A stretch of 31,092 bases of DNA, taken from positions 1 through 31,092 of the IMG/VR virus record IMGVR_UViG_3300017767_000068. The stretch is one strand, 5' to 3'. Within the stretch, counting starts at the first letter, position 1; every line of letters begins with the position of its first letter. Shown here one piece after another: positions 1,107-15,110 of the stretch. The DNA comes from a virus. Position numbers and translations under genes: made by a program. The notes under the pieces are model-generated. The model had not been told where the DNA came from. It did no database searches and saw only the letters and a list, made by a program, of their open reading frames with translations.

Positions 1107-2276
1107 ATGATCGGATATTACAAGGTAGAAAAATTCTCGACAACAAAGTCGATAGTAAAGGATGTTAATGGTAACGTAGTAACAAAGGTACCAGGAACAT
1201 TGTATAGCCAAATGAAGGCTAAAGTATTAAACAACGGTAATGCGTTATGGTTTGATGGTGGTAAGTGGAAGCAGGTTCCTATGAAGGAATATGAAGCTGA
1301 AGCTAATAAGGTGGCTACGCCTACACCAGATTCAGAAATGCCAGAAGAACATTTAGCTGTTATGAATATGATTCATAGTAGTTATGATCTTAAGCCTAAA
1401 GGCTTGAAAATGAATGAGTTAAAATGGAAGTATCTTATTCGCTCAGGGGTGAGAGGTAAGAATATAATGATGACAGGACCAGCTGGTTGTGGTAAGACCA
1501 TGGCTGCGAAGGCATTAGTCAATGCTTTAGATAGACCTGATTATTATTTCAATCTTGGAGCTACACAAGATCCAAGGGCTACCTTAATAGGTAATGTTAC
1601 ATTTGATAAGGAGACGGGAACGTCTTTCTCTGAAGCTCTGTTTGTAAAGGCTATACAACAAGAGAATGCTGTAATATTGCTAGATGAGTTATCTAGAGCA
1701 CACCCCGATGCCTGGAATATACTAATGACTGTATTAGATAGTGGTCAAAGATACTTAAGATTAGATGAAGCGGAAGATCAAGCTACAATCAAGGTAGCTG
1801 ATGGTGTTACATTCATAGCTACGGCTAATATAGGGAATGAATACACATCTACACGTACAATGGATAAAGCCTTGATGGATAGGTTCACAATCATTGAAAT
1901 GGATCTATTATCTTCAACGGAAGAGAGTGATCTATTACAATACATGTTTCCGCTGGTTAATAAGAAGGCATTAGATAATGTGGCTCAGATCACGGCAATG
2001 ACAAGACAGGAATGTAATAAAGAAGAATCTCGATTGTCATCACCTGTGAGCACAAGAACATCGGTTGAAGTAGCGGGCTTATTATTCGATGGATTTAAGT
2101 TGGAAGAAGCCGCTGAGATAACGATGTATCCACAGTATAGTAATGACGGTGGGATAGATAGTGAAAGAACATTCGTTAAGCAAATCGTACAGAAGTTCTG
2201 TGATGATGGTACAGAAGAGGATCTATTCAATGTGGAAGAAAATGATGATTCAATGGAGTACACAAAAGCCAGCTAA
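1107..2276 (+). CDS. CobS/MoxR-like AAA+ ATPase
   Basis: A 389-residue AAA+ protein. Residues 1-100 form a phage-specific N-terminal region. Walker A is GPAGCGKT at 124-131, and Walker B ends in LLDEL with D193-E194. A sensor-1 segment (FIATANIG) follows near 235, and an arginine-finger-like MDRF sits near 259. The layout matches the AAA_5/CobS-MoxR branch, whose members remodel client proteins with a VWA-domain partner. The likely partner is the HExxH-VWA protein at 8439-10535, about 6 kb downstream, which has the same type of promoter and the same GTTCATAACTT upstream element. The family is sure; the client is unknown. Confidence 0.9.
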   Translation: MIGYYKVEKFSTTKSIVKDVNGNVVTKVPGTLYSQMKAKVLNNGNALWFDGGKWKQVPMKEYEAEANKVATPTPDSEMPEEHLAVMNMIHSSYDLKPKGLKMNELKWKYLIRSGVRGKNIMMTGPAGCGKTMAAKALVNALDRPDYYFNLGATQDPRATLIGNVTFDKETGTSFSEALFVKAIQQENAVILLDELSRAHPDAWNILMTVLDSGQRYLRLDEAEDQATIKVADGVTFIATANIGNEYTSTRTMDKALMDRFTIIEMDLLSSTEESDLLQYMFPLVNKKALDNVAQITAMTRQECNKEESRLSSPVSTRTSVEVAGLLFDGFKLEEAAEITMYPQYSNDGGIDSERTFVKQIVQKFCDDGTEEDLFNVEENDDSMEYTKAS

Positions 2277-2537
2277 ATGAATGGAAACAATAGATATATG
2301 ACAGACACGTATATATACAACACAATAGGTATCCGATATGACGTTAGCACTCGTATCAATGGTCAAGGGGGAGAGTTCTTCTCCCCTACACGACCTACCT
2401 CTGTATATATGGCTATAGTCTATGGTATACTACGGTATATAGGCATAGACATGCGTGTTTTCTATACAAATCATGCTATAGGCAGTGTTTTCTATAGAAA
2501 TGAACACCTAATGAAGAAAGAAATGAACAATCAATAA
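2277..2537 (+). CDS. Hypothetical small protein, 86 aa (uncertain)
   Basis: The ATG directly abuts the TAA of the AAA+ gene, which suggests translational coupling, but there is no ribosome-binding site. No family is recognised. The protein is rich in Tyr, Ile and Arg. It contains two VFYxN units ten codons apart, encoded by near-identical 17-base repeats at 2455-2471 and 2485-2501. Composition differs from its neighbours (many CTATAG-like hexamers), so the stretch may be regulatory DNA that happens to be open. An internal ATG at 2298 is an alternative start. Confidence 0.4.
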   Translation: MNGNNRYMTDTYIYNTIGIRYDVSTRINGQGGEFFSPTRPTSVYMAIVYGILRYIGIDMRVFYTNHAIGSVFYRNEHLMKKEMNNQ

Positions 2538-2555
2538 TTTACGAACAATAGCATA

Positions 2556-2566
2556 AAGTTATGAAC
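2556..2566 (-). repeat. GTTCATAACTT element, inverted
   Basis: AAGTTATGAAC is the reverse complement of the 11-mer found upstream of several promoters; this is the only inverted copy seen. Confidence 0.45.
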
Positions 2567-2580
2567 AGGAATAAAATAGC

Positions 2581-2649
2581 CTATAGGCACTTTTTTGATT
2601 TAATCGGCCACACAGTGCTTTTTATAGCGAGCTCATTTTTTTTGCTATA
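2581..2649 (+). promoter_or_regulatory. Competing hairpins upstream of the zinc-finger gene
   Basis: Two pairings compete for one segment. CTATA (2581-2585) plus GCAC (2587-2590) can pair with GTGC (2615-2618) plus TATAG (2623-2627). Alternatively TATAGC (2623-2628) pairs with GCTATA (2644-2649) around a T-rich loop. Mutually exclusive stems of this kind occur in attenuators. No canonical promoter of the window's main class was found between here and the ATG at 2709, although TATAATGTATATAAA at about 2681 is promoter-like. Confidence 0.35.
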
Positions 2650-2708
2650 GGGGGTTCATACATAGCTCTACGTTAAACGTATAATGTATATAAAAATAAT
2701 TAATAAGA

Positions 2709-2960
2709 ATGAATATGAGAAATTGTAACAAATGTCAAGGACCTATCCAAGAGGGTAGAATAAAAGCTATACCTGATGCTACTACTTGTGTAGCATGCTC
2801 GACTACGAGCCAGTGGTATTTAAGGAATATAGTATCTGGTAAGACAGAGTATATGGAGACCGAGATTATTAAGGATCCTAAGCAAGCAGCAATGCTCAAG
2901 GAGATGGATAAGAAAGTTGGATGGGCTTCTAATCTTGTAAAGGACTCTGGAGCACAATAG
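2709..2960 (+). CDS. DksA/TraR-type C4 zinc-finger protein
   Basis: An 83-residue protein with a C4 zinc finger at the N-terminus: C6-x2-C9 and C27-x2-C30, separated by the GxIxxGRIxAxPDATxC segment typical of the DksA/TraR finger. It lacks the long coiled coil through which full DksA enters the RNA polymerase secondary channel, so it resembles the short phage and plasmid TraR forms, but with the finger first. Residues 31-83 are unassigned. A role in modulating host RNA polymerase is known for family members and only inferred here. One base separates it from the next gene. Confidence 0.8.
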   Translation: MNMRNCNKCQGPIQEGRIKAIPDATTCVACSTTSQWYLRNIVSGKTEYMETEIIKDPKQAAMLKEMDKKVGWASNLVKDSGAQ

Positions 2961-2961
2961 T

Positions 2962-3582
2962 ATGGGAGATGCTTACTTTCATAATATGAGTGGTCGCTGG
3001 GCTATAGGTCCTCACATCTCAATGTATCATATGAATGATGATTTACAGTATCTAGATATTGATCATGATATTTTATTATCAGATGCAAGTACTATTCGTA
3101 GACAGTATTGGTTTGATACTACTAACGCAACGTATATATCTAAGTCTTATGAATATGAAGGTAGGTTGGTTGATAAGCCTCTATCTGAAGATCCTCGTTA
3201 TACAGATGTTTTAGTTAATGGTGATTTAGATCTTAGAGAGTTTTCAGGTCATGCTATACCTATGAAAGATCATCTATATAAATTTAATACAGTAATGCCC
3301 AAATTAATTAAATGTTATAATAGAGTATACAGGTATGTTAATTCAGGTGATCCTCTTACATCTAAAACCTCGTATGATATTGCAGCAAGAAATCTATCTA
3401 ATATAGCTTCTATGTTAGAGCCAGAGAATCACACATATATTAAACAACAATTAGCTAGGGATATGTATTTCATTGATAATGATATGATGCATTATCTTAA
3501 TAATACATATAGGAAATATAGGCTCAAGAATCGAGATGAAAGTAGTATGAAAACATTAGATGGTAAGTATACAAATATATAA
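2962..3582 (+). CDS. Hypothetical phage protein, 206 aa
   Basis: I recognise no family. The protein is soluble, rich in Tyr, Asp, Asn and His, with no signal peptide. The second half (from about residue 95) looks helical, with a run around CYNRVYRYVNSGD and a C-terminal helix ending in basic residues. It follows the zinc-finger gene with a one-base gap and so is probably co-transcribed. Its stop codon is followed at once by the GC-rich structured island. Confidence 0.8.
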   Translation: MGDAYFHNMSGRWAIGPHISMYHMNDDLQYLDIDHDILLSDASTIRRQYWFDTTNATYISKSYEYEGRLVDKPLSEDPRYTDVLVNGDLDLREFSGHAIPMKDHLYKFNTVMPKLIKCYNRVYRYVNSGDPLTSKTSYDIAARNLSNIASMLEPENHTYIKQQLARDMYFIDNDMMHYLNNTYRKYRLKNRDESSMKTLDGKYTNI

Positions 3583-3650
3583 GCCCCAATGGTTGACGTC
3601 GGCTTGCCGGCGCTTACGGTTGTCGAGTGTGGCGCGAACGGCTATCGGGG
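3583..3650 (+). ncRNA. GC-rich structured RNA or repetitive element
   Basis: About two thirds of the bases are G or C, in a genome near 30%. CCCC (3584-3587) pairs with GGGG (3647-3650). After one A-C mismatch, ATGGTTG (3589-3595) pairs with CGGCTAT (3639-3645), including G-U pairs. Inside, CGTCGG (3597-3602) and CCGGCG (3607-3612) form a 6-bp stem closed by a CTTG tetraloop, a known stable loop. The remaining arm (3613-3638) has no clear helix. It begins one base after a stop codon, has no T-run for intrinsic termination, and does not fold as a tRNA. Function unknown. Confidence 0.55.
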
Positions 3651-3698
3651 ATTCCGCACAAAAGAGTAAAGTAATTAATATGAATAAAGGAAAATAAT

Positions 3699-3845
3699 AT
3701 GATACAGATAATAGGAATAGTATTCGTCGTGGCTTGTACCTCAATAGCATTAATCTCAATAATAGGTTATGCATTAGGATCTAGCTTTGATCAGAATAAG
3801 GAGTTAATGGATAATATGAATAAATTTGATAAGAAGAACAAATGA
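3699..3845 (+). CDS. Small membrane protein, 48 aa
   Basis: A short gene encoding one hydrophobic segment at residues 2-27 followed by a charged, Asn- and Lys-rich tail (KNK at the end). AAAGG lies about 10 nt before the ATG. The stop TGA overlaps the next start in ATGATAG (ATGA-type overlap at 3842), which supports translational coupling. It opens a run of four overlapping or abutting mini-genes, two of them membrane proteins. Confidence 0.6.
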   Translation: MIQIIGIVFVVACTSIALISIIGYALGSSFDQNKELMDNMNKFDKKNK

Positions 3846-3973
3846 TAGAATTTTTGAAACATGCAACAGGATTATGTGGTGAGCCTCATCCTAGTTTGTT
3901 AACAATGTTATATGGCACACCAGTATTAGGTTATGTATTATATAGAATAAAAAATTATGGTAAAGAAAAGTAA
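3842..3973 (+). CDS. Small conserved-looking phage protein, 43 aa
   Basis: The frame starts in the ATGA overlap with the previous gene and ends 17 nt inside the next one. It begins MIEFLKHATGLCGEPHPSLL and then has a hydrophobic stretch with GTPVLGYVLY near the C-terminus. The CGEPHPS core looks familiar from small phage and Bacteroidota proteins, but I cannot name a family. Overlap on both sides and the absence of frame decay support a real gene. Its topology could be a single re-entrant or membrane helix at residues 19-36. Confidence 0.6.
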   Translation: MIEFLKHATGLCGEPHPSLLTMLYGTPVLGYVLYRIKNYGKEK

Positions 3974-4340
3974 ATACAATAGACGTAGGGCTATTGATTG
4001 TAAGTTGGTATCAAGGAGCAAAGCTAATCCAGGGTACTGTAAGTATATGGTTACCATCGCTGAGTTAGATGGTACTGTTCATACACAACCAGCATATGGT
4101 AAAGATATGCAAGGAGCATTAGCTAGATTAATGCATACAGAAAGAACCGTAAAGGTTGAAAGGAAATTAGAAACCAATGTAGGATTGATATTCATATTAT
4201 GGCTACTCATAATGGGAACACCAGCTATATTATTTGGTGCAGAGAAGACACCATGGGTTTTGGTATATACATTTGGTTCCATTATAACAATAATGGGAAT
4301 AGCCGGGTGGTGGTATAGTTATATAAAAAAAGGAGAATAA
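3957..4340 (+). CDS. Membrane protein, two C-terminal TM segments
   Basis: A 127-residue protein with a basic N-terminus (KKSKYNRRR), a soluble region to about residue 72, then two predicted membrane helices at about 75-94 and 98-119, ending KKGE. The N-terminal domain probably faces the cytoplasm. No family is recognised. It overlaps the previous gene by 17 bp and is followed by AAAGGAG and the next ATG one base after its stop. Confidence 0.75.
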   Translation: MVKKSKYNRRRAIDCKLVSRSKANPGYCKYMVTIAELDGTVHTQPAYGKDMQGALARLMHTERTVKVERKLETNVGLIFILWLLIMGTPAILFGAEKTPWVLVYTFGSIITIMGIAGWWYSYIKKGE

Positions 4341-4341
4341 T

Positions 4342-4563
4342 ATGTATAGAATTGTAAGAGAAGTAAATCATTTAACTGATAAGGTTCAGTATGTGATAGA
4401 GCGTAGGAAATCATTCCTATGGATGGTCAGTTGGACAAGAGATCTAGGATTGGATGTAGTCATGCGTGGTACTGTTGGTGCACCATCATTATCAGGTGCC
4501 CAATGGAAATTAGATCGTATCAAATCGAGAGATCGAATAATGATGGAAAGAGAAATAGTATAA
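4342..4563 (+). CDS. Hypothetical small protein, 73 aa
   Basis: An AAAGGAG ribosome-binding site lies immediately before the ATG. The protein is basic, soluble and of unknown family, with a W-rich middle (FLWMVSWTRD). Its TAA overlaps the next ATG (TAATG), pointing to coupled translation. Confidence 0.7.
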   Translation: MYRIVREVNHLTDKVQYVIERRKSFLWMVSWTRDLGLDVVMRGTVGAPSLSGAQWKLDRIKSRDRIMMEREIV

Positions 4564-4721
4564 TGAATGATTTAGAAAAAAGAATTTGGGCTAAGGCTCA
4601 AACCATTAAAGGTGGTGAATGGCAAGCTTGGTATGAATCATTAACTGCTGCAGAGAGATCTGCATGGGCTTCTGCCAAATCAAAAATAGGTGATCCAAGA
4701 GATAATAAAAGATCTAAATAA
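4563..4721 (+). CDS. Hypothetical small protein, 52 aa
   Basis: I chose the ATG in the TAATG overlap at 4563 over a start 144 nt upstream, which would be buried in the previous gene. The protein is helical-looking and W-rich (EWQAWYESLTAAERSAW), a pattern that resembles small HMG-like or prophage helical proteins but fits no family I can name. It is the last gene before the promoter at 4721; the -33 box starts on the last base of its stop codon. Confidence 0.65.
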   Translation: MNDLEKRIWAKAQTIKGGEWQAWYESLTAAERSAWASAKSKIGDPRDNKRSK

Positions 4722-4753
4722 TTTGGATATGTCAAATATTTTTTGTATATTAA
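4721..4753 (+). promoter_or_regulatory. Promoter, TATATT subtype
   Basis: ATTTGG at 4721-4726 is followed 25 nt on by TATATTAA at 4746-4753, preceded by TTTTTTG. The first A of the -33 box is the last base of the upstream TAA stop. It is 21 nt before the ATG at 4775. Confidence 0.75.
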
Positions 4754-8040: not shown

Positions 8041-8073
8041 ATTTGGTTATTAAATATATTTTTTGTATATTAT
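8041..8073 (+). promoter_or_regulatory. Promoter, TATATT subtype, driving a noncoding RNA
   Basis: ATTTGG at 8041-8046 lies 25 nt before TATATTAT at 8066-8073, preceded by TTTTTTG. No gene follows for 365 nt; instead a highly structured stretch ending in a T-run begins directly after it. Confidence 0.75.
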
Positions 8074-8079
8074 ATATAA

Positions 8080-8225
8080 TATAGTTACGTTATATGGAAG
8101 TCAATGGGTTCCTCTATACTTCCATAGCTTTACGAATAAAGGCCACCTTCACGTGGTGTAGAGTGTTAAGATTATAGTTGCTCACTTATATATCCAACTG
8201 ATAATCGACCGAGAGCCTTTTTTTT
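8080..8225 (+). ncRNA. Candidate structured phage noncoding RNA
   Basis: Downstream of a promoter, four helices can be drawn. P1 is TATGGAAGT (8093-8101) with ACTTCCATA (8118-8126), 9 bp. P2 is AAAGGC (8138-8143) with GCCTTT (8215-8220), 6 bp, enclosing P3 and P4 and followed by TTTTT to 8225 like an intrinsic terminator. P3 is CACC (8144-8147) with GGTG (8155-8158). P4 is GATTATAGTTG (8170-8180) with CAACT-G-ATAATC (8195-8206), 11 bp with one bulged G. There is no open frame of useful length. The start at about 8080 is inferred from the promoter. It is not a tRNA or any RNA family I recognise. Confidence 0.65.
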
Positions 8226-8231
8226 ATTTTT

Positions 8232-8358
8232 GTTCATAACTTATAAAAATAAATGCCAAAAAGCGTGTATATGTCAATTATTTTTCGTATCTTTATATTA
8301 TAAAGATGAGAGATGATTAAAAGCGATAGCTATATTAAATGTAAATTGTTCATAACTT
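8232..8358 (+). repeat. Two GTTCATAACTT elements
   Basis: Exact copies lie at 8232-8242 and 8348-8358, each about 45-55 nt upstream of a TATCTTTA box (8288 and 8395). They flank a short leader with no gene in it. Confidence 0.55.
8263..8295 (+). promoter_or_regulatory. Promoter, TATCTT subtype, weak -33
   Basis: TATCTTTA at 8288-8295 is preceded by TTTTTCG and followed by TATTATAAAG as at 519. The expected -33 position carries GCGTGT, a poor match. With the stronger promoter at 8370 it forms a tandem pair before the VWA gene. Confidence 0.5.
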
Positions 8359-14642: not shown

Positions 14643-14894
14643 ATGAATATAGATCCTATACATAGCACTGATGACAAGCTTTTGCATTTAGCTGTTAACA
14701 ATACGTTTAGGTTTCTTAATGGCAAAAAAAAGATAGAAGATATTAAACCAGGTTCTTGGTTATTATCTAATGCAAACTCTATAGATACTATTGATACGAT
14801 GATTGAATATTATATTTCAATTGAAGCGTATGAAAGATGTGCAAGGTTGGTTCAGATTAAAGAATCAATACTTGATAAGGAAACGACTGTTTGA
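14643..14894 (+). CDS. Member of a three-copy small-protein family (83 aa)
   Basis: I use the ATG at 14643; an in-frame TTG at 14610 overlaps the possible leader peptide. The C-terminal module (IDTMIEYYISIEAYERCARL, then QIKES) matches the genes at 5811 and 11067, and the first half resembles the 5811 protein. Its TGA is immediately followed by the first paired base of the tmRNA acceptor piece, so gene and RNA are probably co-transcribed and then separated by processing. Confidence 0.7.
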   Translation: MNIDPIHSTDDKLLHLAVNNTFRFLNGKKKIEDIKPGSWLLSNANSIDTIDTMIEYYISIEAYERCARLVQIKESILDKETTV

Positions 14895-14943
14895 CTTATA
14901 TTAGCTGCATTGATGGACGAGGGTTCGATACCCTCCACCTCCA
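14895..14943 (+). ncRNA. ssrA: Permuted tmRNA, 3' (acceptor/T-arm) piece
   Basis: The T-arm is GAGGG (14919-14923), loop TTCGATA, CCCTC (14931-14935). Directly after it comes CACCTCC (14936-14942) and the discriminator A14943, which pairs fully with GGGGGTG at 14963-14969, including the G3-U wobble that AlaRS reads. Upstream, CATTG (14908-14912) and CTTAT (14895-14899) match CAATG and ATAAG of the other piece as a P2-like helix. CTA follows the discriminator, so CCA would have to be added after processing. This piece lies before the 5' piece, the order of circularly permuted genes. The exact 5' end is unknown. Confidence 0.85.
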
Positions 14944-14962
14944 CTAAATTATTTAACTTCAT
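14944..14962 (+). other. Intervening segment of the permuted tmRNA
   Basis: Nineteen AT-rich bases join the 3' end of the acceptor piece to the 5' GGGGG of the coding piece. In permuted tmRNAs such a segment is removed by tRNA-type processing (RNase P at the downstream piece, 3' trimming at the upstream one). No promoter is seen inside it. Confidence 0.7.
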
Positions 14963-15110
14963 GGGGGTGACTGGATTTGACACAATGATAAGGGTATAGG
15001 AAGGTCGACGCGTAACTGGCGAACAAGTTGAAATGGCGATGGCGGCTTAGGCACCCTGACCCAACGGCATTAATAGGGCAAGTCGTTAAAGCCCGGTGGT
15101 GGTTGGTTAT
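14963..15110 (+). ncRNA. ssrA: Permuted tmRNA, 5' (coding/tag) piece
   Basis: It starts GGGGGTGA followed by CTGGATTTGAC (14971-14981), the tmRNA D-loop consensus. The P2-like strands CAATG and ATAAG (14983-14992) come next. The tag frame is at 15018-15050. After it an H-type pseudoknot can be drawn: CCCT (15054-15057) with AGGG (15075-15078), and AACGGC (15063-15068) with GTCGTT (15082-15087), one G-U pair. AGGGT (14991-14995) can also pair with ACCCT (15053-15057) and close the tag loop, competing with the pseudoknot stem. I see no obvious PK1. The 3' end near 15110 is a guess. It is far smaller than host one-piece tmRNA. Confidence 0.85.
15018..15050 (+). other. tmRNA proteolysis tag, GEQVEMAMAA
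   Basis: The frame GGC GAA ... GCT TAG encodes ten residues ending in two Ala after a hydrophobic-Ala pair, the ending recognised by ClpXP-type proteases. It is preceded by TAACT, comparable to the bases that set the resume codon in known tmRNAs. The opening Gly-Glu matches Bacteroidota tags as I recall them (GE..YALAA type). The tag is not translated on its own; the Ala charged on the tmRNA would precede it. Confidence 0.8.

Follow-up and report, generated by a model that had tools for sequence, protein, structure and literature searches.

Features of the locus

The window, which is the whole of the viral record IMGVR_UViG_3300017767_000068 (31,092 bases), carries on one strand a compact succession of features (Table 1): a likely promoter, a 9-bp hairpin, a very probable HDV-like self-cleaving ribozyme and a run of T. 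No gene lies within 218 nt downstream of the ribozyme, no tRNA was found in the window, and the VWA gene, the protein of which has its only named relative in a Microcystis phage (36% identity), is preceded by promoter-like sites of its own. The original prediction had proposed a structured RNA here with its own promoter and terminator, comprising the 9-bp hairpin, a closed structure (AAAGGC/GCCTTT) around a short hairpin, an 11-bp stem with one bulge, and a closing T-run, all of which are present. It thus captured P2, the P3 hairpin and P4 and missed the pseudoknotted P1, to which an Rfam lead, HDV-F-prausnitzii, later pointed.

Table 1. Features of the ribozyme locus, in coordinates of the window
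Feature	Position	Strand	Basis
Likely promoter: TTG (8043-8045), 20-nt spacer, TATATTAT (8066-8073)	8043-8073	+	Repeated phage motif
9-bp hairpin (8093-8101/8118-8126), flush with the predicted cut	8093-8126	+	z -2.98
Predicted self-cleavage site, A8126/G8127	8126-8127	+	Conservation begins at G8127; position follows from the HDV-like fold
Very probable HDV-like ribozyme, whole	8127-8220	+	Family model R1, 98.6 bits (training member); covariation; descriptor; sub-threshold RF02682
P1 5' strand, GCUUUAC	8127-8133	+	Pairs with 8158-8164; 4/7 pairs change on both sides, 99.2% of cells paired
P2 5' strand, AAAGGC	8138-8143	+	Pairs with 8215-8220; 98.1% of cells paired, 2/6 pairs with two-sided change
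P3 (8145-8147/8155-8157, ACC/GGU) and loop L3 UUCACGU (8148-8154)	8145-8157	+	Matches P3/L3 of RF02682
P1 3' strand, GUAGAGU	8158-8164	+	Covariation; RNAalifold
P4, 11 bp (8170-8180/8195-8206), bulged G8200, 14-nt loop	8170-8206	+	8/10 tested pairs change on both sides
J4/2 CCGAGA, C8209 the predicted catalytic cytosine	8209-8214	+	C in 24/24 distinct family sequences (23 scripted, L081 by eye)
P2 3' strand, GCCUUU	8215-8220	+	Covariation
Eight-T run overlapping the end of P2	8218-8225	+	Candidate weak terminator

The promoter is borne out as a repeated phage motif. Specifically, the window has 10 copies of TTG-N20-TATNTTW where 3.68 would be expected, a count that none of 100 shuffles attained, and the copy at 8043 is kept, at the same spacing (judged by eye), in the relatives L044, L002 and L003. 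It resembles the Bacteroidota -33/-7 type. Closely similar TTGG...ATTTTTTGTATATTW motifs stand at 4723, 17681 and 20308, the last nearly identical to the 8043 copy, and likely constitute a phage promoter class. A second promoter-like motif, TTTCGTATCTTTATAT, occurs exactly at 8283-8298 and 517-532, with one copy preceding the VWA gene. The predicted terminator fared less well: the T-run exists, and a simple terminator scan found no terminator-like site. T-rich DNA follows P2 in relatives as well (by eye), so transcription may terminate weakly here.

Fold, conservation and very probable ribozyme identity

About 94 of the roughly 145 nt at issue very probably form an HDV-like self-cleaving ribozyme, an assignment that concerns identity and not role, and one that leaves the original reading of a regulatory or host-targeting RNA without support. 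The nested double pseudoknot of P1 and P2, together with P3 and P4, is present according to covariation and RNAalifold, and each helix of the HDV plan, apart from the weak P1.1, is matched in the window. P1 comprises seven pairs, with a G8127-U8164 wobble at the predicted cut, while P1.1 is weak (one pair, C8150-G8165, plus a U-U, by eye), its columns being invariant in our alignment A1. The genomic and antigenomic HDV ribozymes and the CPEB3 ribozyme follow the same fold plan, with a G-U at the cut, but differ in sequence and P4 and belong to a eukaryotic setting. A descriptor of the HDV plan has a single match in the window, at this site, and matches 1 of 60 shuffled windows, a figure that measures rarity and is not a blind test, the descriptor having been composed after the site was known.

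Folding energy, the first check proposed with the prediction, would not by itself carry the claim of a structured RNA, because the region is not unusually stable: 8080-8225 folds at -30.8 kcal/mol (z -1.13), and 23 of 200 shuffles do equally well. The reading as a simple stable RNA on the strength of energy was therefore rejected. The second proposed check, covariation, was decisive. Relatives were collected through the VWA protein (5 loci) and by searching viral contigs with three DNA patterns of the ribozyme, which returned overlapping sets of 12, 58 and 26 stretches; a pattern for an upstream RNA domain (domain D, below) added more. By our own assignment, the 58 stretches divide into 20 members of this ribozyme family, 3 sites that resemble other HDV-like ribozymes (L038, L039 and L043, with L039 placed by eye only, since R1 gives it no score) and 35 chance carriers. 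A1 holds 18 distinct phage sequences, and their stems are kept by two-sided changes: 99.1% of 467 pair cells are standard (shuffles, 90.0%), both partners change in 14 of 26 pairs (shuffles, 5.9), and the covariation score of 0.305 exceeds the shuffled value of 0.119, with 0 of 500 shuffles reaching it. Structures slid out of register score at most 0.050. Less striking is the number of further pair types (20 against 17.1, equalled in 31 of 500 shuffles), and P3 falls outside the test because it never varies in A1. RNAalifold, supplied with no structure, recovers P1 and P4. The structured RNA first claimed is thus supported, and it is conserved.

With later matches, the family comprises 27 records and 24 distinct sequences, excluding L062, which is truncated. 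Each family record has one ribozyme copy, and two weak matches occur in G023, from which L038 comes. The G-U at the predicted cut is found in 23 of the 24 sequences, the window included, with L041/L058 having G-C, and L044 shows one C-A mismatch in P1. Conservation among homologues begins exactly at G8127, as expected of a ribozyme cutting at its own 5' end; the sequence upstream differs among gene contexts, with nothing fixed across them, although stems recur there. From the fold, the catalytic C and conservation starting at G1, we infer with high confidence that the RNA self-cleaves.

The best match in all of Rfam, in a permissive scan, was HDV-F-prausnitzii (RF02682) at 8127-8178 (24 bits, E 0.015), short of its gathering cut-off of 44 bits; L003 has the same match at 20.5 bits. 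The ribozyme resembles that family in its P1 and P3 lengths and in an L3 ending ACGU, and differs from it in P4, which is left unmatched. R1, a model built solely from this ribozyme family, also recognizes other HDV-like sites, with scores somewhat inflated by shared search patterns (and, for L066, by its retrieval query as well): L038 249-318 at 32.9 bits, where HDV-F-prausnitzii itself reaches 48.9 bits, above cut-off, and which adjoins a tRNA-His; the crAssphage cr4_1 site (L066) at 32.9 bits; L043 at 27.8 bits; and L071/L072 at 25.8 bits, where the predicted cut falls directly 3' of a tRNA-Thr end, the arrangement of theta ribozymes. R1 gives E<=1 to 0 of the 35 stretches that carry the 18-nt search pattern by chance. 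Mel-JY01 has a weak site only (21.1 bits, E 0.04), the R1 search of LR756508 gave no match, and the window DNA matched none of the named phages. A bacterial occurrence was considered and rejected: a 20-nt pattern led to one genome-contig stretch, in Kribbella, a match we attribute to chance because R1 covers only positions 7-32 there, at 18.2 bits.

Upstream stems, domain D and gene neighbourhoods

The 9-bp hairpin is outside the ribozyme, immediately 5' to where cleavage is predicted. Taken alone it is unusually stable: 0 of 200 shuffles equal it, and 0.9% of 4,382 window positions match it. L044, L002 and L003 preserve its stem with paired changes (by eye), and an exact 18-nt piece of it was found in no other viral contig. 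A test for upstream stems at 23 loci gave a clear stem in 8 (at most 2.1% of background; the window, L044, L002, L003, L067, L014, L016 and L066), a moderate one in 9 (5-15%) and none in 6 (L010, L069, L012, L013, L015 and L037). In many relatives the stem ends 0-3 nt before the predicted cut, and the loop sequence of these hairpins is not conserved.

L010 and L069 nonetheless carry domain D, a structured RNA domain common to L003 (5375-5460) and L010 that lies upstream of the ribozyme and has an invariant UAAGACCGGCAUCA...GAA (alignment A2: L003, L010, L067, L069, L078-L090 and others). A search for its signature returned 22 viral stretches, a scope for which no chance expectation was available, and the domain was not found in the window. 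Nothing convincing in Rfam 15 identifies the domain, and its structure is partly supported, with RNAalifold returning a small covarying hairpin only. Six of the 18 distinct copies are linked to the ribozyme (L003, L010, L067, L069, L080 and L081); in these, 0-1 nt separate the closing stem from G1 (4 scripted; L080 and L081 judged by eye because the script picked different stems). Among the 12 copies without a ribozyme, 8 have 6 or more T within a 10-nt interval about the end of the stem (L074, L076, L078, L079, L085, L088, L089 and L090) and 4 do not (L073, L083, L086 and L087). L081, which has a ribozyme, likewise reaches 6 T.

Gene neighbourhoods vary. In L008, L011, L018, L022, L026 and L027, a gene of about 65 amino acids ends 8-10 nt before G1, its stop codon within the hairpin, while L013, L015 and L037 have a TATAAT-like box just before G1 (by eye). 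In L012 (9888-10060), a tRNA-Gln follows the ribozyme after 6 nt, the opposite of the order seen with theta ribozymes. A connection with the VWA gene, suggested by position, was rejected, most homologues lying elsewhere, for example between the ~65-aa gene and other small genes.

Other RNA elements were recorded in the same genomes. The crAssphage cr4_1 record (L066) holds, within about 3.3 kb (1439-4677), a RAGATH-7 element, three hatchet ribozymes and its HDV-like site (2495-2585), which has a 12-bp upstream stem. The hatchet ribozymes are also self-cleaving RNAs in phage DNA but belong to another ribozyme class. The window contains a permuted (two-piece) tmRNA gene at 14883-15050 (RF04321, 58 bits), the tag of which, read by eye, ends in ...EMAMAA, and ARAGORN reads the tag GEHVEMAMAA in L002 and L003. 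A tmRNA link to the ribozyme was rejected, with the permuted gene in 7 of 7 VWA-phage records and in none of 17 further ribozyme or crAss records; such phage-borne tmRNA merits separate study.

Possible role and relation to known ribozymes

We propose that the ribozyme makes a 3' end. The transcript would begin near 8080, the probable start, or arrive from upstream genes; the ribozyme would fold during transcription and cleave the bond joining A8126 to G8127, C8209 acting as the catalytic base. Of the products, the 5' fragment, some 47 nt long, would terminate in a 3' hairpin carrying a 2',3'-cyclic phosphate, and the 3' product would be the folded ribozyme with a 5'-OH. The net effect would be to create a 3' end for a small RNA or an upstream mRNA. 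A hairpin-capped, cyclic-phosphate 3' end should resist 3' exonucleases. To such hairpin-capped 3'-end formation for the upstream RNA we give about an even chance, because stems end so close before the cut in many relatives, and because domain D ends either at the ribozyme or, in most copies without one, near T-rich stretches. Against this explanation, upstream stems are clear at only 8 of the 23 loci, and a stem abutting the cleavage site might interfere with cleavage geometry. More tentatively, a self-cleaving ribozyme and an intrinsic terminator may be interchangeable means by which some phages complete small structured RNAs, since domain D ends either in a terminator-like stem with a T-run or in one that directly adjoins an HDV-like ribozyme; the ~47-nt product of the window would be one such ribozyme-finished RNA. 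Re-ligation by phage RNA ligases was rejected, PF09414 being found in 2 of 20 records (1 above cut-off) and RtcB in 0 of 20, records that are often fragments.

The same hairpins might instead merely aid folding, keeping the 5' flank from mispairing, with a cut product that has no role of its own. An upstream hairpin of genomic HDV is reported to act in this manner on its ribozyme, and the position of the hairpins directly before the cut, with their unconserved loops, agrees with it. We consider this somewhat unlikely, given that the window and its relatives have a promoter dedicated to this RNA and that a conserved RNA domain, D, ends at the same place. Unlikely, too, is a service to the downstream RNA, in which removal of the 5' leader and its triphosphate would leave a compact 5'-OH start that stabilizes the next gene or frees a tRNA. 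Some contexts favour it: L013, L015 and L037 combine the TATAAT-like box with the lack of an upstream stem, a small gene begins 18-20 nt after P2 in L015 and L037, and tRNA-Gln closely follows P2 in L012. The window itself, in contrast, has its gene-free stretch after the ribozyme and a VWA gene with separate promoter-like sites. Each of these two alternatives may apply in different contexts.

The original prediction, adapted, would make this a non-cleaving small regulatory RNA with a borrowed HDV-like fold, which its own promoter, its T-run and the single copy per record would suit; the invariant catalytic C and G1, homology that begins at the cleavage site and the diverse gene contexts make it very improbable. 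Chance structure in AT-rich DNA, with which the ordinary energy of the whole region would agree, is refuted by the covariation and by the rarity of descriptor matches in shuffles, and its probability is negligible.

Whether the ribozyme is undescribed has two answers: no Rfam 15 family matches it at threshold, but HDV-like ribozymes of phages have already been published (PMC10879173). A search of titles and the openings of abstracts on such ribozymes, taking in few subscription papers and no preprints, returned only that paper, on theta ribozymes, which are HDV-like, occur in gut Caudoviricetes and, according to its authors, form a subgroup of minimal ribozymes without a P4 domain, most of them abutting a tRNA 3' end. 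It lists 526 non-tRNA phage matches, the function of which it leaves open (PMC10879173). As characterized there, theta ribozymes are the closest known relatives, being likewise phage-encoded double pseudoknots of the HDV type with the catalytic C first in J4/2. Unlike these minimal, P4-less RNAs, the window ribozyme has a covarying 11-bp P4 with a 14-nt loop; and unlike the tRNA-associated theta ribozymes, whose cleavage site is at most 5 nt from the 3' end of a tRNA, it has no tRNA beside it, and in L012 the tRNA lies downstream.

Few HDV-like ribozymes have a known job. The family described here, with its covarying P4 and 24 distinct sequences, places its predicted cuts beside either stable stems or an RNA domain that is conserved, and with it the making of 3' ends without nuclease or terminator becomes directly testable by in vitro transcription.
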